From: an uncultured delta proteobacterium | GTDB taxonomy: Bacteria; Myxococcota_A; Polyangia; Polyangiales; Polyangiaceae | Direction: 5' to 3' | Assembly (NCBI GenBank): GCA_903906315.1 | Contig: CAIVJW010000449.1 | Location: 1-64,000, forward strand | Length of the DNA stretch: 64,000 nucleotides | Shown here: positions 10,414-28,404 of the stretch, one piece after another | How the letters are laid out: the number at the start of each line of letters is the position of its first letter | Numbering within the stretch: position 1 is the first letter of the stretch | Notes under the pieces: generated by a model | What the model was told of the DNA's origin: nothing | Databases searched by the model: none | What the model saw: only the letters and a program-made list of their open reading frames with translations | Translations under genes and position numbers: made by a program

Positions 10414-11087
10414 GCTCGCCCCGGTGCGGGCTTGCGCCAGGCGAGCGTCCAGTGCCGGTCGCTCGTGACGCGGACCGCCGCCGCTTCGACGCCGTGCGGC
10501 TGCACGCGCACGACGACCTCGTCGACGGTGAGCGCGGCCCGGAGTGACGCCTCGAGCAGCGCGCGCTGCGCCGGGGTGTCGTCGGCCGCGTGCGACGCGA
10601 CGATCGCGGCGACCGCGGCTTCGTCCTCGGGGCGCGCCAGATCGCGCACGAAGAGCACCCCGCCCGGGCGCAGCACGCGCACCATTTCGGCGAGCGCCGT
10701 CTCCGGCTCCGGCACATGGTGGATGATGCTGTTCGACATCACGGCGGAGAACGTCGCGTCGTCGAAGGGCAGTCGCTTGGCGTCGATCCGCTGCAGCCGG
10801 ATGGCGTCGCCGAGGCCCTCGCGCTCCACGTTCTCGGCGGCGACCGCCAGCATCGACGGCGCGAGGTCGACGGCCGTCACGCGGGCGTCCGCGCGGCGCG
10901 CGCAGAGCGCCACCGGGATCCGCGCCGTCCCCGTGCCCACGTCGAGCACCGCGCCGAGGTCGGGGGCGAGCGCCGTGAGGTCGTCGCAGAAGGCCGCGTT
11001 CACGCCCGCGTGGTCCATCGCGTCGTAGTCGCGGGCCTCCTCGTCGGAGTCCATCACCTCGGGCTCGAGCACGCGCCGGAGCGGCAT
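10410..11087 (-). CDS. class I SAM-dependent methyltransferase
   Basis: 225 residues with a Rossmann methyltransferase core: motif I VLDVGTGTARIPVAL, motif II acidic VTAVDLAPSML, motif III region IDAKRLPFDDATFSAVMSN, and MVRVLRPGGVLFVRDL before the fifth strand. This is the Methyltransf_11/25 type, which acts on small molecules or lipids; the substrate cannot be inferred. The HVPEPETAL segment resembles UbiE-like enzymes, but the sequence is too general to call ubiE. It is the first gene of a two-gene unit with the lipoprotein. Confidence 0.8.
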   Translation of the reverse strand: MPLRRVLEPEVMDSDEEARDYDAMDHAGVNAAFCDDLTALAPDLGAVLDVGTGTARIPVALCARRADARVTAVDLAPSMLAVAAENVEREGLGDAIRLQRIDAKRLPFDDATFSAVMSNSIIHHVPEPETALAEMVRVLRPGGVLFVRDLARPEDEAAVAAIVASHAADDTPAQRALLEASLRAALTVDEVVVRVQPHGVEAAAVRVTSDRHWTLAWRKPAPGRA

Positions 11088-14633: not shown

Positions 14634-16139
14634 TTACTTGTGGGTCCCGACCGTCGAGGGCGTGATGTTCCAGCGGAACTTGTCGAGCAGCACGAGCGAG
14701 TCGACGTTGTGGTCGCCCGCGTCCCACGTGACGAACTCGATCTCGATCGTCTCCCCCGGCACGACGGGCGCGTCGTTCGTCAGCCACACGGTGCCGCCGC
14801 CGTCGGTGAGGTCCGCGTCCCAGCCGCCCATGCCCGTGCCGACGAGCTCGAGCGTGCCGCCCGGGCAGCTCGCGGGCTGCCCCGCGACGGGGAAGCAGAT
14901 CTGGAAGAAGGCGTTGTTGACGCTGACCGGGTTCTTGTTCGCGTCGAACGCGATGTTCTTGTCGGTCGGCAGCGGCTCCTGGGGCGGGTTCGCGTTCGGG
15001 TCCGGCAGCCACGACGAGGTCAGCAACGTGACGAAGAAGTCGTTGTACTGGCGGCAGAGGAACTCGGGGTACTCGGCCGAGTAGAACTTGAAGCGGTACG
15101 ACAACGACTTCGCGTTCGTCGGCACGCGGATCCGCGCCTTCAGGTTCACCGAGTCGTACGAGGTGTTGCACGCCTGGCCCTGGCACTGCGACGAGCAGTT
15201 CGCCGGCGAGGGGAACAGCCCGCCGTGGGCGGCGACGTAGTCCGGGGGGCCGGCCGACTGCGTGCCCGCGCTGTAGTTGCCGAGCTGCCCCGCTTTCTTC
15301 CCGTTCTGCGGGTGCACGTAGCCCGCATCGCCCGGCGCGCGCGCGGTCCCGCTCGACAGCGCAGCCATCGTCGTCCCCGCGAGCGGCTTGACGGACGCGC
15401 CGTAGCCCGCGAGCACGCCGACCTGCAGATCGGTCGGCGGCGGAGCCTTCGAGCCGTCCGCGAGCGAGAGCTCCGCGCTGATGATGCCCCACTTCTTCTT
15501 CGCGAGCGCCGGCGCCTCGGTCGTCTCCTGGCAGAGATCCATCGCGTTGATCAGCGCGAGCGCCGTCGTCGGCGTCGCGAGCGCCTTGCCGCTGCAGTCG
15601 GGGAAGGGGAGGTCGTCCTTCGTCGTCGGGTCGCAATCGTCGTCGACCCCGTTGCCCGGGTACTCGAACGCGCCCGGGTTCACGAGCGCCGGGTCGCCGC
15701 AGTTGCCCCCAGCGAGCGTGTCGCAGCAGTCGCCCTGGTTCGGCGTCCAGCCGTCTCCGTCGAGGTCCGAGTCGGCCGGGTTGCCGCCCTGGCCCGTCGC
15801 GCCGCCGACGCCCCCGGCACCGCCCTGGCCCGTGGCCCCGCCACTGCCGCCGCCGCCCTGCGCGGTCGCGCCGCCGCTGCCACCTTGTCCGGTCGCCCCG
15901 CCGTGGCCCGCGGCGCCGCCGCCGTGGCCCGCCGCGCCCCCGCTGCCGCCGTGCCCGCCGAGCCCCGTCGTCGTGACGGTCTTCGTGTCGGTTCCGGTCG
16001 TCGTCTTCGTCGTGGTCGTCGTTCCGTCTCCCCCTGTCGTCGCGGAGCTCGCGTTGCTGGTTGGAGCGCAGGCGGAGGCCCCGAGCGCGAGGCCGAGGAG
16101 GGCGAGCCGTGCGGGGCGAGACGTGCGCGAGCGGAGCAT
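14634..16139 (-). CDS. choice-of-anchor-L lipoprotein with Asp-rich metal-binding motif
   Basis: 501 residues. Lipoprotein signal to Cys24, then a Thr run and about 75 residues of Gly/Ala repeats (GGxGG type). Next is an Asp-rich, Cys-containing block (DSDLDGDGWTPNQGDCCDT and GNGVDDDCD) like MopE-type putative metal-binding motifs. From about 190 a choice-of-anchor-L domain follows (KKWGIISAELSLADG, AKSLSYRFKFYSAEYPEF, YNDFFVTLL, ending VDSLVLLDKFRWN). It is predicted to be surface exposed and possibly calcium binding. The next gene encodes a longer paralogue. Confidence 0.78.
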   Translation of the reverse strand: MLRSRTSRPARLALLGLALGASACAPTSNASSATTGGDGTTTTTKTTTGTDTKTVTTTGLGGHGGSGGAAGHGGGAAGHGGATGQGGSGGATAQGGGGSGGATGQGGAGGVGGATGQGGNPADSDLDGDGWTPNQGDCCDTLAGGNCGDPALVNPGAFEYPGNGVDDDCDPTTKDDLPFPDCSGKALATPTTALALINAMDLCQETTEAPALAKKKWGIISAELSLADGSKAPPPTDLQVGVLAGYGASVKPLAGTTMAALSSGTARAPGDAGYVHPQNGKKAGQLGNYSAGTQSAGPPDYVAAHGGLFPSPANCSSQCQGQACNTSYDSVNLKARIRVPTNAKSLSYRFKFYSAEYPEFLCRQYNDFFVTLLTSSWLPDPNANPPQEPLPTDKNIAFDANKNPVSVNNAFFQICFPVAGQPASCPGGTLELVGTGMGGWDADLTDGGGTVWLTNDAPVVPGETIEIEFVTWDAGDHNVDSLVLLDKFRWNITPSTVGTHK

Positions 16140-16168
16140 GCGAGACCTCGTGGCGAGTGCGGGGGCGT

Positions 16169-18373
16169 TCACTGGTGCGTGCCGGGTTGGGTCGCCTGGA
16201 GCGACCACTGGAAGGCGTCGAGGAGCACGACCGAGTCGTACCAGGGGTCGTTCGTGTCCCACACGGCGAAGCGCAGCTCCATCGTCTCGCCCGGCTTCAC
16301 GTTCCCGGTCGTGACGAGCCAGCCGGTGCCGCCGCCGAGCTGGTTGTTGGAGCCGCAGTAGCCGACGTCGTTGACGAACGTCGGCGCGGGGTTCACAAGC
16401 TCGAAGCCGGTGCCTGCGAGCTCGGCGTTGCTCACGCACTTCGACGTCGCGCCGAGCGTGGCGCCGTTCGCGCAGCCCGTCTGCCCGTTCTTGCAGACCG
16501 AGAACAGCCCCGTGTCACCGAACGCGAGGTTCACGCCGACCGGGTAGACCTTGTTTTGCGGCGACGCGTAGCTCGCGAGGTTCTTGTCGTTCGGGTTCGG
16601 CTGCTCGCCTGGCGCGGGCGCGAACGCGGAGTCGATCAGCGCGACGAAGAAGTCGTTGTACGGGCTGCAAACCCACTCGGGATACTCCGCCGAGAGGAAG
16701 TAGGTCGCGACGCTGAACGACTTGGCGTTCGTCGGCACGCGCACGCGCACCTTGAGCATCATCGGGTTCTTCGCGGGGTTCGCAGGGTCGTCGTCGTTCA
16801 GCGGGTCGGGATCCGGGCAGCCCGGTGCGTTCGGCAAGTTGCCGCCGTTCGCCTGCAGCCAGTCGGCGGGGTACTTGCTCTTCGTGCCCGTGTCGTTCGG
16901 GCACGTGCCCGAGAGCAGGCACGAGTTCGTCACCTGCGCCTGGAAGCTCACGTAGGCCGGGCTCTTGTCGGCCACGTCCGCCGCGGCGCCCGTCGACAGG
17001 ACGGCGATCTGCGCCCCCTTCTTCGGCACGATGCTCGAGCCGAAGCCCGGCCGGATCGCGTGCGAGGCCGGGGCCGGGTTCGCCGATCCGTCGGCCTTCA
17101 GCAGCCCCGCGCTGATGACGCCCCACTTCTTGTCCTTGAGCGGAGGGATCTCGACGGTCATCTGGCAGAGATCGATCGCCTTCGCGAAGTCGATCGCGCT
17201 CGCCGAGTTGCTCGCCAGCCCCTGGTCGCACGCGGCCGCCACGTCGTCGGCCACGCCGTTGCAGTCGTTGTCGACCGCGTCGCCCGTCACGTCGAACGCG
17301 CCCGGGTTCACCTGCGCGGGGTTTCCGCACTGCTGCAGCGTCTCGCAGCAGTCGCCGTCGCACACCGTCCAGCCGTCGCCGTCGAGGTCGGCGACGAGGT
17401 CAATCGTGCCGTCGCAGTCGTCGTCGACCTTGTTCCCGCACGCCTCCGGCTGCGGAAGCACCTCGCCGTCGCACCCGCCCCAGGACATGCCGTCGGGGTC
17501 GCACGTCCGGGTGCCGCCCTTGCACGGGCCCACGTTCTCCGTGCCCGGCGCGCCGTCGTAGCAGGGCTCCGTCGTCCCGGGCGCGCAGAAGCAAGCGCCG
17601 TCCGCGAGCGTGTTGTGCTCGCAGCCCGTCGCCGGGTCGCGATCGCAGTCCTCGAAATTCGGCTTGCACGCTCCCATGCCGCACTGTCCGCCGGCGCACG
17701 CGGCCTCCGCGTTGGCCGGCGCTTCGCACGCATTGCCGCAGACCCCGCAATGCGCGACCTCCGCGAGCACGTCGTGGCACTTCGCATCCTGGCAGCACGA
17801 GTCCCCCGGCAGGCAGTCGTGCGTCGGCGAGCACCCCGGGACGCAGTTGCCCGCGTTGCAGACCGTGCCCGCGCCGCACTTCGAGTCGTCCACGCAGCCG
17901 ACGCACTGGTGCACCATCACGTCGCAAACGAGCGGCGCGCCGCAGTCCTTCTCCTCCTTGCAGCCCGCCTTGCACGACAGCGCCACCGGGTCGCAGAACT
18001 GGCCCGCGCCGCACGTGTCGCTCGCCGGCAGGCACTCCACGCACGCTCCCGTCGCGACGTCGCAGACCTCGCCGCCCGGCTTGCCCTTGCAGTCGGCGCT
18101 CGTCGCGCACCCCGTGACCGTGGCGCCGCCCGCACCGCCCAGCCCGGCCCCTCCCGCCCCCGTGGAGCCCCCCGCCCCAGTCGTCGGAGCCCCGCCTGCG
18201 GCCCCCCCCGCGCCGCCCCCGCCCGTCGCGCTCGCGCCGCCCAGCCCGACGGCGGTCGACGACGTCTCCGTCGAGGACGAGCCGCCGGGCGAGCACGAGG
18301 CGAGGAGGTGCCCCGCGGCGAAGGCGAGCGCAATCACGACCAGTGCGGACCGAATACGTAGGCGGGCGTGCAT
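16169..18373 (-). CDS. large Cys-rich choice-of-anchor-L lipoprotein
   Basis: 734 residues: lipoprotein signal (HLLASC, Cys27), Gly/Ala-rich linker, then some 230 residues with regularly spaced Cys (CATSADCKGKPGGEVCDV, CKEEKDCGAPLVCD, CSPTHDCLPGDSCCQ) like disulfide-knotted adhesins. The Asp-rich block (DLDGDGWTVCDGDCCET, DNDCNG) and the choice-of-anchor-L domain (KKWGVISAGLLKADG to SVVLLDAFQWSLQ) match the neighbouring gene, so the two are tandem paralogues. Likely a surface adhesion or matrix protein (inference). ATG 18373 directly precedes the signal peptide; the frame is open upstream without a signal. Confidence 0.78.
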   Translation of the reverse strand: MHARLRIRSALVVIALAFAAGHLLASCSPGGSSSTETSSTAVGLGGASATGGGGAGGAAGGAPTTGAGGSTGAGGAGLGGAGGATVTGCATSADCKGKPGGEVCDVATGACVECLPASDTCGAGQFCDPVALSCKAGCKEEKDCGAPLVCDVMVHQCVGCVDDSKCGAGTVCNAGNCVPGCSPTHDCLPGDSCCQDAKCHDVLAEVAHCGVCGNACEAPANAEAACAGGQCGMGACKPNFEDCDRDPATGCEHNTLADGACFCAPGTTEPCYDGAPGTENVGPCKGGTRTCDPDGMSWGGCDGEVLPQPEACGNKVDDDCDGTIDLVADLDGDGWTVCDGDCCETLQQCGNPAQVNPGAFDVTGDAVDNDCNGVADDVAAACDQGLASNSASAIDFAKAIDLCQMTVEIPPLKDKKWGVISAGLLKADGSANPAPASHAIRPGFGSSIVPKKGAQIAVLSTGAAADVADKSPAYVSFQAQVTNSCLLSGTCPNDTGTKSKYPADWLQANGGNLPNAPGCPDPDPLNDDDPANPAKNPMMLKVRVRVPTNAKSFSVATYFLSAEYPEWVCSPYNDFFVALIDSAFAPAPGEQPNPNDKNLASYASPQNKVYPVGVNLAFGDTGLFSVCKNGQTGCANGATLGATSKCVSNAELAGTGFELVNPAPTFVNDVGYCGSNNQLGGGTGWLVTTGNVKPGETMELRFAVWDTNDPWYDSVVLLDAFQWSLQATQPGTHQ

Positions 18374-18540
18374 GCGGGCTCCCCTGGGTTCATGCCTCCG
18401 GCGTCGCCGGCGCGACCGCACGAATCCGAAGAGTGTACCGCCCCGCACGCGCACCGATCGAGAGCGAACTCCGCCGCTCGAAGGCACGACGCCGGAGCGG
18501 CTCGTGGCCACCCCGGCGTCGACGCCGACCTAGCGCTGGA

Positions 18541-19257
18541 TCAGTTGCCGGTGATCTGGTCGAAGCACGCGACGTACGCCTCCTGGCACGTCGGGGCAGG
18601 GACCGCCGCGAGCGCCGTCGTCATGCAGTCGCCTAGGTCCACCATGGGCTGGTCCTGCCACGGCGCGATGTCGACGACGCACGAGGGCTCGTCGAACGTC
18701 GCGTCGCCCTGCGGGCAGTACGCCTTGAGCTGCCCGCAGACGCTCGAGGACGCGTCGGTGCACGACAGCGCCGACACCTTGCCGACGCAGTTCGAAACCT
18801 GCTCGAGGTCGCACGCGTTTGCCGGCTCGACGCCGATCTGCGCCAGGCAGTACCAGAGCTCCTCCGCCGCCCCGGCGACCCACAGCCGGAACCCACCGTG
18901 GCACGCGCCGATCCCGGGCGGCGGGTTGCTGCCGCTCACACCGCCCTGGTCGTCGCAGACGGCGGTCGCCGCCGCGATCGGCGTCTTCGTCGAGTCGTCA
19001 CAGACAGCCTCTGTCTGTCCGCTGCCTTGCGTGCCGAGGCACTCCGGCTGCCCGCCGGCGCCCATCCCGCCGGCGCCCATCCCGCCCGCCCCCGAGCTGG
19101 TGGTCGTGGTCGTGGTCGTCGAGGTGGTCGTCGTGTAGCCCCCGCCCGCGCCGCCTCCGACGGTGTTGCTGGTCTCCGTCGCCTTGATGGTGCAACCGGA
19201 GGCGAGCAGCGCGGTGCCAAAGGCGACCGAAGCGAAGATCGAGCGGTGCGAAAGCAT
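18541..19257 (-). CDS. small Cys-rich lipoprotein
   Basis: 238 residues with lipoprotein signal LLASGC (Cys22), a Gly and Thr-rich low-complexity linker (about 35-70), then a domain with some 14 Cys (ECLG, AVCDD, YCLAQ, ACDLEQVSNC, SLSCTDASSSVC, AYCPQG, SCVVD, DCMTT, TCQEAYVACFDQ). The helical, Cys-paired pattern resembles myxobacterial secreted Cys-rich proteins of unknown function. A GGGAGGAAC ribosome-binding site precedes ATG 19257. Same strand as the two choice-of-anchor-L genes, 167 bp upstream of them. Confidence 0.65.
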   Translation of the reverse strand: MLSHRSIFASVAFGTALLASGCTIKATETSNTVGGGAGGGYTTTTSTTTTTTTSSGAGGMGAGGMGAGGQPECLGTQGSGQTEAVCDDSTKTPIAAATAVCDDQGGVSGSNPPPGIGACHGGFRLWVAGAAEELWYCLAQIGVEPANACDLEQVSNCVGKVSALSCTDASSSVCGQLKAYCPQGDATFDEPSCVVDIAPWQDQPMVDLGDCMTTALAAVPAPTCQEAYVACFDQITGN

Positions 19258-19819
19258 ATTTCAGTTCCTCCCATGGCCCCCGATCGCGGGGGCCGAGCCA
19301 AACTCAGGTGGACAGCCGCAGCGAAGTCTACTACGTCACCCCGTGTCGGGCGCTTCCTTTCCCGGTCCGCGAGGCGGAGCGGGAAGCGGAACGTTCGACC
19401 GGAGCGGGCTCGCTCCGAAGACGTCGCCCTCGGTGGTCGCGCCAAAACGCCTCCAAGGTCGATTTCTCAAAAGAGCCTTGCGCGATCCTTCTCGCCTTGC
19501 TAGAAACCGCGCTCTGTTTCAGACGGAAGCCGTAACGGCGTCTCGTTCGCAACGTGCCTGCCCGGCCACCGTGGGCCTCCCCCCGGTGACGCGTGCAGGA
19601 ACCTCAGTCTTCGGGCTGTCGCGTTTCGACCCCGACTCGTACGACGGTAGGTCCTGAGGACGCTCCTCGGGCCAGGCGGGACCCCGGTCCCAATCCCGTA
19701 GCAGGCTGGCCCCGCTTCGGACTCCGACGAGAGGGCCTTGATGGCCCCAGCCGAGCGAACGCTCGGACGAACACGTACCGCAGCGCCGGCTCGACGGCGC
19801 GCGGTGAGAGGTGACTCGA
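19258..19819 (+). other. leader region of the ribosomal-protein cluster
   Basis: 562 bp between the divergent Cys-rich lipoprotein gene and rplV. I see no trace of rpsS or other S10-operon genes. The left half holds a candidate promoter (19478-19506). The right half has a series of hairpins: GTCCTGAGGAC (19651-19661), GGGACCCCGGTCCC (19678-19691), GGGCC-TTGAT-GGCCC (19733-19747) and CCGAGCG-AA-CGCTCGG (19751-19766). That density fits a structured 5' untranslated region. Confidence 0.5.
19478..19506 (+). promoter_or_regulatory. candidate promoter of the ribosomal-protein cluster
   Basis: TTGCGC, 17 bp, TAGAAA. The hexamers match the sigma-70 consensus 3/6 and 4/6 with ideal spacing, in one of the least GC-rich stretches of the leader. 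Transcription would start near 19513, giving an untranslated leader of about 300 nt before rplV. Confidence 0.3.
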
Positions 19820-20158
19820 ATGGTTAGCAACGCCAGCGCGAGGTTCTCGCGGATCGCCCCGCGAAAGGCCCGGATGATCGCCGATCTGGTTCGCGGTCGC
19901 GACGCGGCCGAGGCCATCCAGCTCCTTCAGTTCACCATGAAGAGCGGCGCGCCCGTCCTGAAGAAGCTCCTCGAGAGCGCCGTCGCGAACGCCCGTCAGG
20001 CGGGCGCCGACGTCGACGCGCTCTTTGTCAGCAAGGCGATGGTGGACAAGGCGCCGAACAAGTTCTTCCGCCGTTGGCGCCCGCGTGCCATGGGCCGCGC
20101 GACCCGTATCGCCAAGGGCGTTTCGCACATCGTCATCGAGCTCGACGAGCGCAAGTAA
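19820..20158 (+). CDS. rplV: 50S ribosomal protein L22
   Basis: 112 residues with the L22 core: FSRIAPRKARMIADLVRGRD, KKLLESAVANARQAGAD, KAMVDKAPNKFFRRWRPRAMGRA (the exit-tunnel hairpin region) and VIELDERK at the end. ATG 19820 is preceded by GAGAGG with 8 nt spacing, preferred over the in-frame GTG at 19811, which overlaps that site. It is the first gene of the cluster here; in most bacteria rpsS and the rest of the S10 operon lie directly upstream, but they are absent. rpsC follows after 18 bp. Confidence 0.95.
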   Translation: MVSNASARFSRIAPRKARMIADLVRGRDAAEAIQLLQFTMKSGAPVLKKLLESAVANARQAGADVDALFVSKAMVDKAPNKFFRRWRPRAMGRATRIAKGVSHIVIELDERK

Positions 20159-20176
20159 GGTTCAGGTAGAGGATCC

Positions 20177-20869
20177 ATGGGACAAAAGACCCATCCGTAT
20201 GGCTTCCGTCTTGGCGTCATCAAGACGTGGAGCAGCAAGTGGTACGAGGACGGCGCCGCCTACCAGAAGTGGCTCCACCAGGACATCCGCATCAAGCGTG
20301 CGATCAAGCAGTACCTCTACAACGCCAACATCGCGAGCGTTGAGATCGAGCGTGCCGCCAATCGCGCCAAGGTGATCGTGTTCACCGCCCGGCCGGGGAT
20401 GGTCATCGGCAAGGGTGGCAAGGGCATCGAGATCCTGAAGAGCGGCAACGTCGGTACCGCCGCCAAGGGCGAGACCGTCTTCCCGGGTGTCTCCTCGTTC
20501 ACGGATAACGAGGTCTTCATCGACGTTCAGGAGGTCCGGAAGGCCGAGACCAACGCGCAGCTGGTCGCCGAGAACATCGCGACCCAGCTCGAGCGCCGCA
20601 TCGCCTTCCGTCGCGCCATGAAGAAGGCCGTCGCAACCGCGATGAAGTTCGGCTCCAAGGGCATTCGTGTCCGTTGCGCTGGTCGCCTCGGCGGCAGCGA
20701 AATGAGCCGCGTCGAGACGTACCGTGAGGGTCGCGTCCCGCTGCACACCCTTCGTGCCGACATCGAGTTCGGTCTCGCCGAAGCGAAGACCAAGGTCGGC
20801 ATCATCGGCGTGAAGGTCTGGATGTTCAAGGGCGAGGTCCTGCAGCGCAAGTCGCGCCGGATCCAGTAA
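20177..20869 (+). CDS. rpsC: 30S ribosomal protein S3
   Basis: 230 residues: N-terminal [15 protein letters not shown] domain with [13 protein letters not shown] (the GxxG RNA-binding loop), and C-terminal domain with [19 protein letters not shown] and [17 protein letters not shown]3 sits at the mRNA entry channel of the 30S subunit. The KH region holds a small extra loop ([20 protein letters not shown]) compared with E. coli. AGAGGA lies just upstream of the ATG. A 90-bp gap with a hairpin repeat separates it from rplP. Confidence 0.96.
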
Positions 20870-20891
20870 GCCCGTCCCTGCTGGTCACGAT

Positions 20892-20933
20892 GGGGTCGCG
20901 AGCGACCCCAAACCCCCGCCGGTCAGGCCGGCG
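20892..20933 (+). repeat. operon hairpin repeat, copy A (rpsC-rplP gap)
   Basis: GGGGTCGC-GA-GCGACCCC (20892-20909) is a perfect 8-bp stem, preceded by GAT and followed by CAAACCCC. A second stem CGCCGG-TCAGG-CCGGCG (20917-20933) follows. No T-run, so not an intrinsic terminator. The same layout recurs in the rplX-rplE and rpsM-rpsK gaps. Confidence 0.7.
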
Positions 20934-20959
20934 AAGGTAAGTCGAGAGGCGCAAGAGCC

Positions 20960-21373
20960 ATGCTGTCCCCCAAGCGAACCAAGTTCCGCAAGATGCAGAA
21001 GGGCCGTGTCCGCGGTATCGCGTACACGGGCAGCGACGTCTCCTTCGGTGACTTCGCCCTCCAGGCGCTCGAGCCTGCTCGCATCACGTCGCGCCAGATC
21101 GAGGCCGCTCGTATGGCGATTCAGCGTCACTGCAAGCGTGCCGGCAAGCTCTGGATCCGGATCTTCCCCGATCGTCCGGTCACCAAGAAGCCGCTCGAAG
21201 TCCGCATGGGTGGCGGCAAGGGCGCGCCGGAGGAATGGGCCGCGGCGGTTCGTCCCGGGCGCGTGATGTACGAGCTTGCCGGTGTCCCCGAGGAGATGGC
21301 CCGCGAGGCCTTCCGACTCGCAGGCCACAAGCTCCCGATGCAATGCAAGTTCCTCGCGCGCGGCGCGATCTGA
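20960..21373 (+). CDS. rplP: 50S ribosomal protein L16
   Basis: 137 residues, standard length. [19 protein letters not shown] at the start, [42 protein letters not shown] and [12 protein letters not shown] at the end are the L16 signature blocks. L16 organises the A-site region and the peptidyl-transferase centre of the 50S subunit. Thirteen base pairs separate it from rpmC. Confidence 0.96.
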
Positions 21374-21386
21374 GGCGGAGGCAGCG

Positions 21387-21611
21387 ATGAAGTCCAAGGA
21401 GCTGCACGAGCGGAGCACCGAGAACCTCCTCGAACTCGAGAAGACGCTCGGCATCGACCTCTTCCAGGCGAAGTTCAAGAACTACACGAACCGCCTGAAC
21501 GACACGTCGACCATCAGGAAGACGCGGCGCGACCTCGCCCGCGTCAAGACTCTCCTCACGCAGCGCGCGGCCCAGCCCGCCGTCGCGGGTGAGTCCGGAG
21601 GCACGGAGTAG
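21387..21611 (+). CDS. rpmC: 50S ribosomal protein L29
   Basis: 74 residues: a two-helix protein with MKSKELHERSTENLLELEKT and the RLNDTSTIRKTRRDLARVKT signature. L29 lies near the tunnel exit beside L23. ATG 21387 has GCGGAGGCAG upstream; the open frame extends into rplP, which rules out earlier starts. The C-terminal tail (AAQPAVAGESGGTE) is slightly longer than average. Two base pairs separate it from rpsQ. Confidence 0.94.
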   Translation: MKSKELHERSTENLLELEKTLGIDLFQAKFKNYTNRLNDTSTIRKTRRDLARVKTLLTQRAAQPAVAGESGGTE

Positions 21612-21613
21612 CC

Positions 21614-21925
21614 ATGGCCACGCAAAGCCCCGACACCGCGCAGGCGAGCGCGGCCAAGCCCGAGCGCCAGCACGGGTTCCGCCGCACCCTCGTCGGTCGC
21701 GTCGTCAGCGACAAGATGGACAAGACGGTCACGGTCGAGGTGATCCTCAACACCCCCGACCCCATGTACCGCAAGTACACGAAGCAGCGCGCGCGCTACA
21801 AAGCGCACGATGAGACGAATCACTACAAGACGGGCGATCGCGTCGAGATCACGGAGCACCGCCCGATCTCTCGCGACAAGCGCTGGCTGGTGACGAAGCT
21901 CGTGTCCCGTCCGGTCTCGGAGTAG
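21614..21925 (+). CDS. rpsQ: 30S ribosomal protein S17
   Basis: 103 residues with the OB-fold S17 core: [59 protein letters not shown]. The N-terminus has about 20 extra residues ([19 protein letters not shown]) compared with E. coli S17. Binds 16S rRNA early in assembly. It begins 2 bp after the rpmC stop, so the genes are tightly coupled. Confidence 0.95.
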
Positions 21926-21930
21926 GCGCC

Positions 21931-22299
21931 ATGATCCAGGTCTCTACCCACCTCGAGGTCGCCGACAACTCCGGCGCGCGGGTCGTGAAGTGCATCAAGG
22001 TTCTCGGAGGCTCGCGCCGCCGTTACGCCGCACTTGGCGACATCATCGTCGTCTCCATCAAGGAGGCGATGCCGGGTGCCAAGGTCAAGAAGGGTGACAC
22101 CGCCCGCGCCGTCGTGGTCCGCACCGCGCGCGAGTACCTTCGCACCGACGGCAGCTACATCAAGTTTGACACGAACAGCGCGGTCCTCATCAACAAGGAC
22201 AAGGAGCCGATCGGAACCCGAATCTTCGGGCCGGTCGCTCGCGAGCTCCGCGCAAAGAAGTTCATGAAGATCATTTCGCTCGCGCCGGAGGTGCTCTGA
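21931..22299 (+). CDS. rplN: 50S ribosomal protein L14
   Basis: 122 residues, canonical length. [20 protein letters not shown] at the N-terminus, [20 protein letters not shown] and the L14 signature around [20 protein letters not shown] are clear. L14 contributes to the 30S-50S bridge and binds 23S rRNA. The stop shares one base with the rplX start (TGATG at 22297-22301). Confidence 0.97.
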
Positions 22300-22607
22300 T
22301 GGAACGCCTCAAGGTCGGCGACCTGGTGCAGGTCATCGCCGGTAAGGACAAGGGCAAGCAGGGTCAAGTGAAGAAGATTCTCGTCGACGAGGGCCGTGTG
22401 CTCGTCGAAGGCGTGAATCTCGTCACCCGTCACCAGAAGCCCACGCCGCGCAACCAACAGGGCGGCCGCATCACCAAGGAGGCGCCGTTGGCGAGCTCAA
22501 ACGTGATGCCGATCGACCCGACGTCCGGCAAGCCCACCCGCGTCAAAGTGAAGGTGGCGGAGGACGGGAAGAAGATGCGCGTCGCGAAGAGCGGAGCGGC
22601 GATCTGA
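22299..22607 (+). CDS. rplX: 50S ribosomal protein L24
   Basis: 102 residues with the KOW motif near the N-terminus ([20 protein letters not shown]) followed by [20 protein letters not shown] and [20 protein letters not shown]24 is an assembly initiator of the 50S subunit and lies by the tunnel exit. The start overlaps the rplN stop by one base. A 149-bp gap with a repeat hairpin follows before rplE. Confidence 0.96.
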
Positions 22608-22695
22608 CTCGGTCGGGGCCGCTCTGGGCCTCGAACACCAGTTTTGAGGGGGCCATTCGCGGCTCCACCCCGTCGGCGGAGCCGGCGCAAGTTTC

Positions 22696-22737
22696 GATGG
22701 GGCCGCGTCGCCCCAAACCGGGGTCGGCGTAGCCGGC
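22696..22737 (+). repeat. operon hairpin repeat, copy B (rplX-rplE gap)
   Basis: GATGGGGCCGCGTCGCCCCAA is a diverged version of copy A, with GATGGGG and CCCCAAAC kept. It is followed by a stem GGTCGGC-GTA-GCCGGCC with one mismatch. A similar stem (GTCGGC-GGA-GCCGGC) precedes it at about 22672. Confidence 0.55.
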
Positions 22738-22756
22738 CGAGTGATTGAAGGCAGCC

Positions 22757-23482
22757 ATGGCGGACGACAAGAAGGACAAGGCCAAGGACAAGGCCGCCAA
22801 AGACGGCAAGGGCGGCGGCGCCCCCAAGGACAAGGGTGCCCCCAAGGAGGCGAAGGCCCCCGGCAAGGGCAAGGGCACTAAGGGCAAGGCCGACAAGGCA
22901 GCTGCGGCGCCGGCCGAGGCACGCCCGCGTGACCCGAACTACGTCCCCCGTCTTCGCACGCACTACCACAAGCTGGTGGCTGCGGCCCTGACCAAGCGCT
23001 TCGGTTACAAGAACCCGATGATGGTGCCCCGCCTCCAGAAGGTGGTCATCAACATGGGCCTCGGCGCCGCGGTGCTAAACCCGAAGATCATCGACTCCGC
23101 GGTCGCCGATATGACGGCGCTCGCAGGGCAGAAGCCGGTCGTGACGCGCGCCCGAAAGTCCATTGCGACCTTCAAGCTGCGTGAAAACCTCCCCATCGGC
23201 GTGATGGTCACGCTGCGCGCTGAGCGCATGTGGGAGTTCGTCGACCGCCTGATCAGCTTCTCGCTACCCCGCGTCCGCGACTTCAAGGGCGTGTCGCCCA
23301 AGGGATTCGACGGCAAGGGTAACTTCACCATGGGTCTGCGTGAGCAGATCATCTTCCCCGAGATCGACTACGACAAGATCGACGTCGTTAAGGGGATGAA
23401 CATCTCGTTCGTGACGACCGCGCGCACGGACGAAGAGGGGCGAGCCCTGCTCGCCGAGCTCGGCATGCCGTTCCGGCATTAG
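22757..23482 (+). CDS. rplE: 50S ribosomal protein L5 with long basic N-terminal extension
   Basis: 241 residues against about 180 usually. The L5 core starts near residue 62 ([73 protein letters not shown]) and is complete. Residues 1-60 are a low-complexity Lys/Ala/Gly/Asp extension ([16 protein letters not shown]) that is probably disordered. L5 binds 5S rRNA in the central protuberance. ATG 22757 has GAAGG upstream; the in-frame TTG at 22745 overlaps that site. Confidence 0.93.
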
Positions 23483-23499
23483 GATTCGAGGGACGTTCG

Positions 23500-23685
23500 A
23501 TGGCCCGTGCGAAAGAATTTGCCAAGCTGAATCGGCCGCCGAAGTTCGCCGTGCGGCACCGGAACCGCTGCAAGGTGTGCGGCCGGGGCCGCGCGTACTA
23601 CCGCGACTTCGAGCTCTGCCGTATCTGCCTCCGTCTCTTCGCCCTCCGTGGCGAGCTGCCCGGTGTGATCAAAGCGAGCTGGTGA
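23500..23685 (+). CDS. rpsN: 30S ribosomal protein S14, zinc-binding type
   Basis: 61 residues, the short type (also called rpsZ) with a zinc ribbon: Cys24, Cys27, Cys40 and Cys43 in [36 protein letters not shown] and KASW at the end are typical. It needs zinc, unlike the longer Cys-free paralogue that many genomes keep elsewhere. Located between rplE and rpsH, as expected. Confidence 0.96.
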
Positions 23686-23689
23686 CGCC

Positions 23690-24088
23690 ATGATGACCGA
23701 CCCGATCGCAGACATGCTGACCCGCATCCGGAACGCCGCCCTCGCGCGGCACGACCGGACGGAGATCCCCGCCAGCAAGCTCAAGGCGGCGGTCGCGGAG
23801 ATCCTCAAGTCCGAGGGTTACATCGCCGACGTCCGCCCCTCCGAGAATGACGCTGGCCCGAAGAAGCTCACGATAGTGCTCAAATATGGGCGCGATCGAC
23901 AGAGCTCCATCGACGGTGTGCGCCGCATCTCGCGGCCCGGCCGCCGCATCTACGTGCACCATGACGAGATTCCGAAGGTCTTCTCCGGCCTTGGAATCTC
24001 CATCCTGAGCACGTCGCGCGGCATCATGAGTGACCGCGACGCGCGCCGGCTTAAGATCGGTGGCGAGCTGATCTGCGAGGTGTGGTGA
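23690..24088 (+). CDS. rpsH: 30S ribosomal protein S8
   Basis: 132 residues: MMTDPIADMLTRIRNAALAR at the start, EIPASKLKAAVAEILKSEGY, GVRRISRPGRRIYV and the C-terminal signature GISILSTSRGIMSDRDARR. S8 binds the central domain of 16S rRNA and in E. coli represses the spc operon by binding its mRNA. The stop overlaps the rplF start (TGATG). Confidence 0.97.
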   Translation: MMTDPIADMLTRIRNAALARHDRTEIPASKLKAAVAEILKSEGYIADVRPSENDAGPKKLTIVLKYGRDRQSSIDGVRRISRPGRRIYVHHDEIPKVFSGLGISILSTSRGIMSDRDARRLKIGGELICEVW

Positions 24089-24684
24089 TGCAACCGCAGG
24101 TTGAGACCAGCGCTTCCTCGTCCAAGACCAGCCGAATCGGCAAGCGACCGGTGGAGGTGCCCAAGACGGTCACCATCACCCTCGCGAACCGGATCATCGA
24201 CATCAAGGGCCCGAAGGGCCAGCTGTCGCGTCCGCTCGTCGACACGGTCGACGTAGCGATCGAGAACGGGATCCTTCGCGTCTCGTCCACAGCGCCGGGT
24301 CGCGACGCGTCGCGCCTCCAGGGGCTGATGCGAGCGCTCATCGCCTGCATGGTGAAGGGCGTCGCCGAAGGCTACGAGCGGATCCTCGAGCTCAAAGGTA
24401 CCGGTTACCGCGTCGAGCTGAAGGGCACCACCCTGCACTTCGCACTCGGCTTCTCGCACCCCGTCGCCTTCGTGCTGCCGAAGGGCATCACGGCGGCCAT
24501 CCCTGGCGACTCCAAGGGCACCGTCCTCGTGCTCAATGGAGCCGACAAGGAGGTCATCGGGCAGACGGCCGCGAAGATCCGTGGGTTCCGTCCTCCCGAG
24601 CCGTACGGCGGCAAGGGCGTCCGGTACCGCGGCGAGCGCGTCCGCGAGAAGGCTGGCAAGGCCGGCAAGGGCGGCAAGAAGTAG
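24088..24684 (+). CDS. rplF: 50S ribosomal protein L6
   Basis: 198 residues with the duplicated L6 fold. Blocks include SRIGKRPVEVPKTVTITLAN, IIDIKGPKGQLSRPL, LMRALIACMVKGVAEGYERI, LELKGTGYRVELKG and FRPPEPYGGKGVRYRGE. ATG 24088 is used because it overlaps the rpsH stop by one base; two earlier GTG codons lie inside rpsH. The extreme C-terminus is Lys/Gly-rich (KAGKAGKGGKK). L6 supports the factor-binding site of the 50S subunit. Confidence 0.95.
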   Translation: MQPQVETSASSSKTSRIGKRPVEVPKTVTITLANRIIDIKGPKGQLSRPLVDTVDVAIENGILRVSSTAPGRDASRLQGLMRALIACMVKGVAEGYERILELKGTGYRVELKGTTLHFALGFSHPVAFVLPKGITAAIPGDSKGTVLVLNGADKEVIGQTAAKIRGFRPPEPYGGKGVRYRGERVREKAGKAGKGGKK

Positions 24685-24702
24685 TCAGGGAGCTAGACGA
24701 CC

Positions 24703-25062
24703 ATGGGCATGAAGATCGTTGGTCGGGAGCGCCGCAAGCTCCGTATTCGCAAGAAGGTCGACGGGACGCCCGAGCGCCCGCGCCTGAGCGTGTTTCGCAG
24801 CGCGAAGCACATCTATGCCCAGGTCATCGACGACGTGACCGGCAAGACGCTCGCGCACGCCTCCACGCTGTCGAAGGACCTCAAGGGGGCCCTCGAGGGC
24901 GACAAGAAGACGGGTGCAGCCAAGAAGGTTGGCGCGCTCATCGCGAAGGCTTGCAAGTCGAAGGGCATCGTCAAGGTGGTCTTCGATCGCAACGGCTACC
25001 TCTACCACGGGCGCGTGAGCGCGCTCGCCGAGGCCGCGCGCGAGGCCGGGCTCGAGTTCTGA
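24703..25062 (+). CDS. rplR: 50S ribosomal protein L18
   Basis: 119 residues: basic N-terminus [60 protein letters not shown] and [20 protein letters not shown], all L18 hallmarks. It binds 5S rRNA with L5. Sixteen base pairs separate it from rpsE, whose start has AGAGAGAAGG upstream. Confidence 0.96.
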
Positions 25063-25078
25063 GAAGAGAGAAGGAATC

Positions 25079-25684
25079 ATGGCGTTCGAACAGCTCGACG
25101 AGGAAAAGCTCAAAGAGCGCGTCATCCACATCAACCGCGTCGCAAAGGTTGTGAAGGGTGGCCGGCGCTTCTCTTTCTCGGCGCTCGTGGTCGTCGGGGA
25201 CGAGGCGGGGCACGTGGGGGTCGGCTTGGGCAAGGCCAACGAGGTCCCCGAGGCAATCCGCAAGGGCAACGATCAGGCGCGGAAGAACATCTTCCGCGTC
25301 CCGCTCGACGGCGTGACGATCCCGCACGAGTCGTTTGGTCATGAGGGCGCCGGCAAGGTGCTCCTCAAGCCGGCGAGCCCCGGGACCGGCGTCATTGCGG
25401 GCGGCGCGGTTCGCGCGGTCGTCGAGTCGGCCGGAATCCACGACGTGCTCTCAAAGTCGCTCGGGACCAGCAACCCTCACAACGTCGTGCACGCGACGGT
25501 GAAGGCGCTGAAGAACCTGAAGAGCCCCGAGCAGGTGGCCAGCAAGCGCTCGATGCAGGTCGATGACCTCGGCTACGAGCGGCGCGGCGCCAGCAACACC
25601 GGCGGAGCGCGGCGCGCAAGCGTCGCTCCGGCGGCGCCCGCCGCTCTCGTCGCGGCCACCAAGCCCGAAGGAGTCGCGTCGTGA
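25079..25684 (+). CDS. rpsE: 30S ribosomal protein S5 with C-terminal extension
   Basis: 201 residues against about 166 in E. coli. The double-stranded-RNA-binding-like N-domain ([35 protein letters not shown]) and the C-domain ([36 protein letters not shown]) are complete. The last 35 or so residues are an Ala-rich tail ([20 protein letters not shown]). S5 shapes the mRNA entry channel and affects decoding accuracy. The stop overlaps the rpmD start. Confidence 0.95.
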
Positions 25685-25884
25685 AGCCGTACCTCCACGT
25701 CCGTCAGACGGGCAGCACCATCGGCGAGGTCGAGGAAATCCGCAAGGTCATCAAGGGTCTGGGCCTCCGTCGCCCGGGCAAGCAGGTGGTCGTTGCGAAC
25801 ACGCCCTCCTTCCGCGGGATGATCAAGAAGGTGATGCACCTGGTCGCGGTCGAGGAGATCGCGACCCGACCCGAGGCCAAGTAG
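25681..25884 (+). CDS. rpmD: 50S ribosomal protein L30
   Basis: 67 residues starting at GTG 25681, whose GTGA overlaps the rpsE stop by 4 bp. [20 protein letters not shown] and [20 protein letters not shown] match L30, though the first strand is shorter than in E. coli. L30 is a small 23S-binding protein not present in all bacteria. Confidence 0.92.
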
Positions 25885-25922
25885 GCCTAGCTCGACGCCG
25901 AGCAGGGTAAGGAAGACTCGCA

Positions 25923-26408
25923 ATGGACATCCTCTCGAAGCTCCAGGCCCCCGAGGGCGCCGTGACGAAGAAGCTGCGCGTCGGGCGCGGCGTCGGCTCG
26001 GGTCTCGGCAAGACCGCCGGTCGCGGCCAGAAGGGCCAGAAGGCCCGGTCGAAGGGCAACATCAACAAGAAGCACTTCCAGGGCGGCCAGACCCCGATCC
26101 AGCGCCGGCTCCCGAAGCGAGGCTTCCGAAATCCGCTCGCGGACGTCGTCGTCGCGGTCAATGTGGGAGATCTCGAGATCTTCGATAGTGGTGCCGCCGT
26201 CGACGCTCTGGCGCTGCGCGCGACGCGACTGGTCCTCGGTCGGTTCGACCAGATCAAGATCCTGGGCGACGGCGAGCTCACGAAGAAGCTCACGGTTACG
26301 GCCAACCGCTTCTCCAAGTCGGCCGTCGAGAAGATCGAAAAGGCCGGCGGAACGGTTGTCGTGGTCCCCCGCCCGGAGCCGCGCGCGGCTCGTGGCGCCA
26401 AGAAGTAG
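25923..26408 (+). CDS. rplO: 50S ribosomal protein L15
   Basis: 161 residues: glycine-rich RNA-binding N-terminus [37 protein letters not shown], then the globular domain with [12 protein letters not shown] and [20 protein letters not shown]. The C-terminal tail is basic. Assembles late in the 50S subunit. The spacing to secY is 19 bp, in the canonical order. Confidence 0.95.
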
Positions 26409-26427
26409 TCCGGGGTAGCGAGTCCGT

Positions 26428-27756
26428 ATGGCGAGCTTGGCTGGCATCTCCAACTTTCACCGGATCCCCGAGCTTCGGCGTCGGGTGATCTTCACGTTGG
26501 TGATGCTTGCGGTCTACCGCATCGGCGTGTTTGTCACGACGCCGGGCGTAGACCGCAACGCGATGCGACACTTCGTCGCGAAGCAGTCCGGTAGCCTACT
26601 CACCTTCTTCAACATGTTCTCGGGCGGCGCGCTCGAGAACCTGTCGATCTTCGCCCTCGGCATCATGCCGTACATCTCGGCGTCGATCATCCTGCAGCTC
26701 ATGGGCATGGTCTACAAGCCCATCGACGAGCTCAGGAAGGAGGGCGAGCAGGGCCGGCGGCGGCTCGATCAATACACGCGCTACGGCACCGTCGCGCTCA
26801 GCATGTTTCAGGCATTCGGTATCGCCAAGATGCTCGAGGGCATCTCGAGCAGCGAAACGGGAGCCGGCATCGTCAATCATCCCGGCATCGGCTTCCAGCT
26901 GATGACCATCATCACGCTGACGACCGGCACCGCCTTCCTCATGTGGATCGGCGAGCAGATCACCGAGCGAGGGGTGTCGAACGGCATCTCGCTGTTGATC
27001 TTCGCGAGCATCGTCACGCGAATCCCCGAATCGATCGGCAACTTCTTCGCCCAGAAGGCCGGAGATATCCAGCCGCTGACCCTCGCGGCGATCGCGGCCT
27101 TCACAGTCGCAGCGATCGCGACCATCGCCTTCTTCGAGAATGGCCGTCGGCAGATTCCGATCGTCTACTCCAGGCGGCAGGTGGGGCGTAAGATCTACGG
27201 CGGGCAAGCGGCACACCTTCCGCTGAAAGTGAATACCGCTGGCACGATTCCCCCGATCTTCGCGTCCTCTCTGCTCATGTTCCCCGCCACGCTGGCGAAC
27301 ATGAACATCCCGGGAATGGATCGGATCCAGGGGATAATCAATCGCGGTGACTGGGTCTTCAACACCGGCTACGCCGTACTGATTGTCTTCTTCTGCTACT
27401 TCTACACGAACGTCACGTTCCAGCCGGTCGACGTCGCGGAGAACCTCAAGAAGCAGCAGGCGAACATCCCGGGCATTCGCCCCGGGAAGCAGACGGCCGA
27501 TTACATCCACCGCGTGATTCAGCGAATCACATTCGGCGGCGCGATGTACGTCGCTCTCATCTGTATCCTGCCCTCGATCCTCGGCGACCTGATCCACATG
27601 CCGTTTCGCTTCGGCGGAACTTCGCTGATGATTGTCGTCGGCGTGGCGCTCGATACGGCCAACCAGATCGAGGCGCACCTCATCACCCGCAACTACGAGG
27701 GGCTCACCGGGCCCGGTGCGGGACGCATTCGTGCGCGGCGCTTGCCCGAGAGCTAG
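26428..27756 (+). CDS. secY: preprotein translocase subunit SecY
   Basis: 442 residues with ten predicted transmembrane helices. RRRVIFTLVMLAVYRIGVFV is the first helix, GGALENLSIFALGIMPYIS the plug region, and PLKVNTAGTIPPIFASSLLM the SecY signature. ENLKKQQANIPGIRPGKQTA is the cytosolic loop before the last helices. It forms the protein-conducting channel in the inner membrane. It has the usual position after rplO; the next gene is adk. Confidence 0.97.
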   Translation: MASLAGISNFHRIPELRRRVIFTLVMLAVYRIGVFVTTPGVDRNAMRHFVAKQSGSLLTFFNMFSGGALENLSIFALGIMPYISASIILQLMGMVYKPIDELRKEGEQGRRRLDQYTRYGTVALSMFQAFGIAKMLEGISSSETGAGIVNHPGIGFQLMTIITLTTGTAFLMWIGEQITERGVSNGISLLIFASIVTRIPESIGNFFAQKAGDIQPLTLAAIAAFTVAAIATIAFFENGRRQIPIVYSRRQVGRKIYGGQAAHLPLKVNTAGTIPPIFASSLLMFPATLANMNIPGMDRIQGIINRGDWVFNTGYAVLIVFFCYFYTNVTFQPVDVAENLKKQQANIPGIRPGKQTADYIHRVIQRITFGGAMYVALICILPSILGDLIHMPFRFGGTSLMIVVGVALDTANQIEAHLITRNYEGLTGPGAGRIRARRLPES

Positions 27757-27774
27757 CAGGGGAAGGAGCCGACG

Positions 27775-28404
27775 ATGATCGTAATTCTCGTGGGCCCTCC
27801 GGGGTCGGGCAAAGGAACGCAAGCCCAAGTGGTCTGCGCGAAGTGGGGCATCCCACAGATTTCGACGGGCGACATGCTGCGCGCAGCGAAGCGGAGCGGT
27901 AGGCTCGAGAAGCGTTACCTAGACGTCATGGACGCCGGTGGGCTCCTGCCCGACGAGGCAGTCATCGGCCTCATCGACCAGCGGATCGATGCGGAGGACT
28001 GCGGGTCTGGTTTCCTCCTGGACGGCTTCCCCCGGACGGTAGCGCAAGCGGACGCGCTGGTGGAGCTCCTTGCAAAGCGAGGGCGACTGACCGACGCTGT
28101 CGTCCAACTGGACGTCGCGCGCGATTTGCTCGAAGAGCGTCTCGTTCACCGTCGTACCGACAAAAAGACTGGACAGATCTACCATCTCCTCTACAATCCC
28201 CCGCCCCCCAGCGTGGGTAGTGAGGAGCTCGAGCACCGCGCCGATGATCGGCCCGAGTCGGTGGGCAAACGTCTCGACGCATACGAGGCGATGACCGCGG
28301 CGCTCCTGCCGTATTACGAGAATAAGGGTCTTCTGCGGCGAGTCGACGGTGTCGGCAAGCCAGAAGACGTCACCGCGAGAGTGCTCAGCGCTCTCGGACG
28401 ATAG
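27775..28404 (+). CDS. adk: adenylate kinase
   Basis: 209 residues. P-loop GPPGSGKGTQAQVV near the N-terminus, ISTGDMLRAA, GFLLDGFPRTVAQADAL and a long LID (HRRTDKKTGQIYHLLYNPPP) lacking the four Cys of zinc-type enzymes. Interconverts AMP, ADP and ATP in the cytosol. In many genomes map lies between adk and infA; here infA follows after 14 bp and map is missing from the window. Confidence 0.96.
   Translation: MIVILVGPPGSGKGTQAQVVCAKWGIPQISTGDMLRAAKRSGRLEKRYLDVMDAGGLLPDEAVIGLIDQRIDAEDCGSGFLLDGFPRTVAQADALVELLAKRGRLTDAVVQLDVARDLLEERLVHRRTDKKTGQIYHLLYNPPPPSVGSEELEHRADDRPESVGKRLDAYEAMTAALLPYYENKGLLRRVDGVGKPEDVTARVLSALGR

Follow-up and report, generated by a model that had tools for sequence, protein, structure and literature searches.

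How can a ribosomal-protein cluster be regulated once it has become detached from the S10 operon? The question is raised by a 64,000-nucleotide stretch of DNA (the window, whose first letter is position 1 below) on contig C449 of an 8.8-Mb draft genome made up of 455 contigs; within the window, rplV heads an operon. The gene that usually stands before rplV in the S10 order, rpsS, sits on contig C374 of the same genome, so that the rplV cluster is separated from the S10 side, as the original prediction for this locus had supposed; cut away in this manner, it is also removed from uL4 control. The same prediction had placed a regulatory leader in an array of four hairpins just upstream of rplV (19651-19766), and it had the right kind of element and the wrong bases. 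A conserved and covarying leader RNA does precede rplV, but it lies almost wholly upstream of those hairpins, which it overlaps only at its end, and the hairpins themselves are not conserved.

The operon and its surroundings

NCBIfam named nine of the ten proteins submitted, the cluster members being, besides rplV, rpsC, rplP, rpmC, rpsQ, rplN, rplE, rpsH and secY. From their open reading frames, we take further members to be rplX, rplF, rplR, rpsE, rplO and adk, and presumably rpsN and rpmD. At its N-terminus the L5 protein (22754-23482) carries about 60 additional residues in which Lys, Ala and Pro abound, and the match to its family starts at residue 64. On the other contig (L146, G000 C374) the S10-side cluster seems, by eye, to stop after rpsS with a long GC-rich hairpin. 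Upstream of the leader, three minus-strand ORFs (14634-16439, 16169-18511 and 18541-19257, together 14634-19257) looked by eye to encode secreted or surface-like, low-complexity Gly/Thr/Ser proteins, two of them with similar C-terminal parts; ORF 18541-19257 had no NCBIfam match.

Table 1. Coordinates of the leader, its signals and the operon in the window
Feature	Position	Strand	Details or basis
Promoter-like site TTGCGC-N17-TAGAAA	19478..19506	+	sequence
Conserved three-way-junction leader RNA	19521..19656	+	leave-window-out model R3; covariation on A2
P2 5' strand and core	19529..19537	+	GCCGU 19529-19533, AA 19534-19535 (bulged in the model), CG of core UAACGG
Arm P4	19557..19599	+	stem 19557-19564 / 19592-19599; conserved internal loop GCC opposite GACG
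Arm P5 of the three-way junction, small hairpin CAGUC-UUCG-GGCUG	19605..19618	+	A2; window fold
Core 3' strand ACGA and P2 3' strand ACGGU (19644-19648)	19641..19648	+	A2, pairing counts
Hairpin 1	19656-19668	+	arm 5, loop 3
Hairpin 2	19678-19691	+	arm 6, loop 2
Hairpin 3	19733-19747	+	arm 5, loop 5
Hairpin 4	19751-19766	+	arm 7, loop 2
Likely Shine-Dalgarno stretch GAGAGGTG	19806..19813	+	sequence, by eye
rplV (50S ribosomal protein L22), first operon gene	19820..20158	+	NCBIfam TIGR01044, E 2.3e-33, above cut-off
Rest of cluster, rpsC to adk	20177..28404	+	NCBIfam in part, ORFs

A conserved RNA in rplV leaders

The window's leader was set among 119 rplV leaders, its own included, which came from 30 and then 11 further rplV loci and from 78 stretches fetched by place. 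They comprised 101 leaders from 100 genomes (108 searched) of the Polyangiaceae, a family of soil myxobacteria; a single sister family supplied three more, and the remaining 15 belonged to further families of the order. At one locus (G215 C1:12950056-12950390) rplV was split into two search matches, perhaps by a frameshift or a sequencing error. With the truncated 141-nt leader L107 excluded, as it was from the P2 pairing counts below, 69 of 118 leaders contained the motif TAACGG..ACGA, compared with 2 when the reverse strand was read; over 20 shuffled sets the mean was 2.5 and the maximum 5. Close variants included (the script's count plus L011), the motif was found in about 70 of the 101 Polyangiaceae leaders and in all three sister-family leaders examined, and it was not found in the 15 leaders from other families of the order. 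Its absence from about 30 of the 101 family leaders indicates that it is dispensable for rplV control in general.

Read from its 5' end, the motif consists of one strand of the base stem P2, then UAACGG, a stem that varies, and ACGA, after which P2 is closed. Within P2 lies an invariant core made of the UAACGG (5') and ACGA (3') strands. Two forms of the motif were distinguished, a short type (42 leaders) and a long type (29 leaders, the window's clade), and in the latter the long stem bears a three-way junction with two arms. In the long-type alignment the 5' strand of P2, the AA that follows it and the core were invariant or nearly so. UAACG and ACGA can be joined by a C-G and a G-C pair (columns 16-17 with 174-175, all invariant), which would leave AA bulged on one strand and one more A on the other; this pairing detail is a model, because invariant pairs yield no covariation. 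Arm P4 has a conserved asymmetric internal loop of its own, GCC opposite GACG, found in the window's clade, and it may be a second, putative, protein contact. The single-sequence folding energy of 19521-19656 was ordinary (z 0.01). The possibility that the long stem pairs with the start codon in a conserved way was inspected by eye and dropped.

Covariation

The secondary structure is supported by covariation, as is expected of ribosomal-protein leaders. In A1, an alignment of 13 short-type sequences, 92.7% of cells were paired vs 77.4% in shuffled alignments, double changes occurred in 9 of 13 pairs, and the covariation score was 0.415 vs 0.148. In A2, an alignment of 29 hand-picked long-type sequences (L008 being a doubtful member), paired cells made up 91.8% vs 80.9% after shuffling, both sides had changed in 24 of 37 pairs vs 15.4, and the covariation score was 0.365 vs 0.184, with slid versions of the structure at 0.122 or less; none of 500 shuffles attained any of the five measures. 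Sequences were placed in A2 by a score that drew on P2 and on some of P3, which means that pairing in both stems was partly selected for, but arms P4 and P5 played no role in the choice of sequences, and they showed changes on both sides in 5 of 8 outer plus 3 of 6 inner pairs of P4 (8/14) and in all four pairs of P5.

The pairing of P2 was counted separately in 72 leaders for whose selection only the two anchors plus the inner stem (P3) had been used, P2 playing no part; the window's own leader is outside this set because its P3 has two mismatches. Pairs 1-3 of P2, beside the invariant U-A, form in 71, 70 and 65 of the 72 leaders, and 1000 permutations of the partners gave maxima of 68, 66 and 57. 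Across genera the stem takes the forms CCGU/ACGG, UCGU/ACGA, UCCU/AGGA, GUGU/ACAC, CUGU/ACAG and UUGU/ACAA, a list pre-filtered for pairing, whereas the 72-leader counts were unfiltered.

Model searches and specificity

Three models were searched: R1, built on the short type; R2, built on the long type; and R3, built without the window. In the window, R3 placed the element at 19521-19656 with 92.8 bits (E 2.3e-21), the runner-up having only 12.5 bits, and over 69 sources it gave 24 matches at E <= 1, at least 21 of them at the motif and many of these short-type leaders; this recovery of short-type leaders in place ties the two types together. R1 alone did not find the window's element genome-wide, and locally it scored it at 14.7 bits, lower than a chance site at 10455.

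Over the 289 genomes of the class, R1 gave 29 matches in 28 genomes at E <= 0.1. All 20 matches at E <= 5.1e-6 stood directly before rplV, 11 of them in genomes outside R1's building set; the nine others (E 1.4e-4 to 0.05) lay elsewhere, with L22 not encoded nearby. For R2, all 23 matches at E <= 1.1e-14 were the rplV leader of their own genome, and since all came from R2's building genomes they speak for uniqueness, not discovery; nine more (E 0.0014 to 0.095) were at other places. The nine weak matches of each model were treated as chance. Extended to the 377 genomes of the phylum, R1 gave eight strong matches, all already known, and two weaker ones (E 0.0029 and 0.0084). No second strong-scoring site turned up in any genome in the genome-wide R1 and R2 searches: there was one strong copy per genome, always before rplV. 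A consistent position upstream of ribosomal-protein genes is also a feature of ribosomal-protein leaders.

Signals for transcription and translation

The promoter-like site would put a putative transcript start about 20 nt before the conserved core of the RNA. A TTG-N16-18-TA pattern lies upstream of the motif in 29/29 long-type and 36/42 short-type leaders (65/71), a count made by a lax rule and with no shuffled baseline, and these sites repeatedly show TTGC and a 16- or 17-nt spacing; a stricter consensus promoter scan reported no site. Six relatives share a similar stretch of 26 nt that surrounds the window's -10 and continues past it. No T-tailed intrinsic terminator or attenuator was found in 19200-19900, which favours translational control over attenuation.

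Stretches resembling GAGG precede the ATG in most long-type leaders. In 21 of the 42 short-type leaders no more than 31 nt separate the end of the motif from the coding match. This puts the motif beside the ribosome site, which a bound protein would therefore cover, and translational repression would be the simplest route. Long-type motifs stand about 45-173 nt upstream, the window's own at 173 nt, and coupling to the start codon is less clear in the window's clade.

A second type of rplV leader

Many leaders of the family that are without the UAACGG/ACGA motif have in common a second type, found in other genera, with CAGCCGCC..GGCGG parts and a CGAC..GUCG hairpin that stands directly before the AUG and encloses the ribosome site, GAGGAAACU. 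In the alignment of 14 such leaders (L009, L026, L027, L070, L072, L081, L082, L083, L087, L105, L113, L114, L118 and L119) GAAACUGUCG was invariant throughout, and both sides had changed in 2 of 18 predicted pairs. With covariation this slight, the structure is only suggested; the leaders of this second type may carry one and the same element. The presence of two leader types at one gene in one family offers a system for the study of regulator turnover.

Proposed mechanism and ligand

The place of the RNA, its covariation and its invariant internal loop argue that it behaves like a ribosomal-protein leader. In the reading that we consider probable, 19521-19656 would belong to the 5' UTR of the rplV-rpsC-rplP... 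mRNA and would fold into the base stem P2, the asymmetric core, a long stem and, in this clade, the three-way junction. When present in excess over rRNA, one of the operon's ribosomal proteins (probably uL22, the first product) would bind the invariant core and repress translation of the operon. In the ribosome, uL22 lines the peptide exit tunnel. It is preferred as the ligand, at somewhat better than an even chance, because its gene comes first and because it is one of those proteins that 50S assembly requires for its first step (PMC10931766). Within the present analysis uL22 is favoured only by position, and S8, which the original prediction had offered beside L22, gained no support.

It is less likely, though a serious alternative, that the same leader and the same mechanism serve another rRNA-binding protein of the operon, namely uS17, uL24, uS8 or uL29. 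The motif always adjoins rplV, but the remaining gene order is constant too, as far as seen, so that its position cannot separate these candidates. E. coli 16S helix 11, which we take to be the S17 region, carries GUAACGGC..CGACGA; the covariance model gives this place no score, and in the accepted drawing of the helix the GUAACGGC and CGACGA stretches are paired otherwise, making the likeness to the core one of letters only. Precedent is on the side of such a ligand, in that regulators of E. coli operons are not always the first product, as with S8 for spc and L4 for S10 (PMC10931766). Neither reading E. coli rrnB nor scoring it with R1 brought up a convincing match to the core in 16S or 23S rRNA, the best matches (12.4 and 10.0 bits) being at sites that fit no operon protein, and so mimicry of rRNA does not name the ligand. 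At the level of letters there is a likeness to E. coli 16S 260-282 and 23S 2271-2287; the organism's own rRNA was not found.

Long conserved stems near a 5' end can also protect an mRNA or be cleaved, and the RNA might then be an element for mRNA stability or RNase processing, or the site of a non-ribosomal factor. This is improbable, since what is invariant is not a plain stem but an asymmetric internal loop of the sort that proteins typically recognise, and the element is confined to a ribosomal-protein operon.

Weakest of all is the idea from which the locus was approached, that the four hairpins are themselves a regulatory array. The inverted repeats are real, perfect and non-overlapping, as had been described, and the rplV ATG (19820) is 54 nt past the last one. 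Four or more such hairpins occurred in 1.15% of 2000 dinucleotide shuffles of the segment and in 2.3% of 2203 windows of 116 nt along the same GC-rich 64 kb, so an array picked from 64 kb is within chance; it is only mildly unusual for this sequence and by itself weak. Its folding energy was likewise unexceptional (z -1.4, with 8.7% of 300 shuffles as stable or more). The comparison with homologous leaders that had been proposed for the hairpins gave strong covariation for 19521-19656 and no conservation of the hairpins: by blastn (E <= 0.05) the stretch 19657-19766 matched none of the 118 other rplV leaders, in contrast to 19521-19656, which matched 19 of them. The array was accordingly rejected as a regulatory element, a role that we regard as very improbable, and the uL22-type autoregulatory leader at 19521-19656 is the reading retained.

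Comparison with known systems

The original prediction had recognised no known leader family, and none matched here. In Rfam 15, searched with 19200-20200 on both strands at E <= 5, the only matches were VA, CRISPR-DR24 and mir-1420, all far under their gathering scores, and the S10, L20, S15 and other Rfam 15 leaders were rejected for want of a covariance-model match. No description of an rplV/L22 leader or of uL22 autoregulation was found in the open-access full text searched. The list of 20 leaders in the available part of Eckert and Weinberg 2020 (PMC7247131) has none for L22, rplV and L22 go unmentioned in the main text of a 50-genome survey (PMC11109978), and in the available part of a 2024 review (PMC10931766) uL22 appears only for assembly and in a reference. 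We infer that the element is a new ribosomal-protein leader family, most likely bound by uL22 and repressing translation. That it is the first uL22 autoregulatory leader, and that two unrelated rplV leaders have been swapped within one family with the operon unchanged, is a tentative proposal, somewhat short of probable. The element illustrates how a ribosomal cluster cut from the S10 operon can be regulated, and as a compact RNA with an invariant core it is ready for a binding test.

The E. coli S10 operon includes rplV. Its leader, which responds to uL4, is also a long structured 5' UTR, and it serves ribosomal-protein autoregulation (PMC10931766). Unlike the E. coli operon's regulator, uL4 has no gene in the window's operon, and the Rfam search gave no match here; the E. 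coli leader also acts partly via an intrinsic leader terminator, of which none was found in the window's leader. At the E. coli spc operator the uS8 site is at rplE, inside the operon, and its sequence differs from the core described here; uS8 is also encoded in the window's operon. In E. coli the mRNA site of this protein closely resembles its site on rRNA (PMC10931766).

In PMC7247131, the L2 leader of Alphaproteobacteria (rplB, rpsS, rplV, rpsC) likewise covaries and stands before part of the S10 cluster, its ligand likewise being assigned by the nearest gene only; it belongs to another lineage and has rplB as its first gene. The L20 leader of Deltaproteobacteria, which differs in its gene (rpsT) and in resembling the L20 rRNA site, is likewise a leader RNA of a neighbouring lineage that holds a conserved core in a scaffold (PMC7247131).
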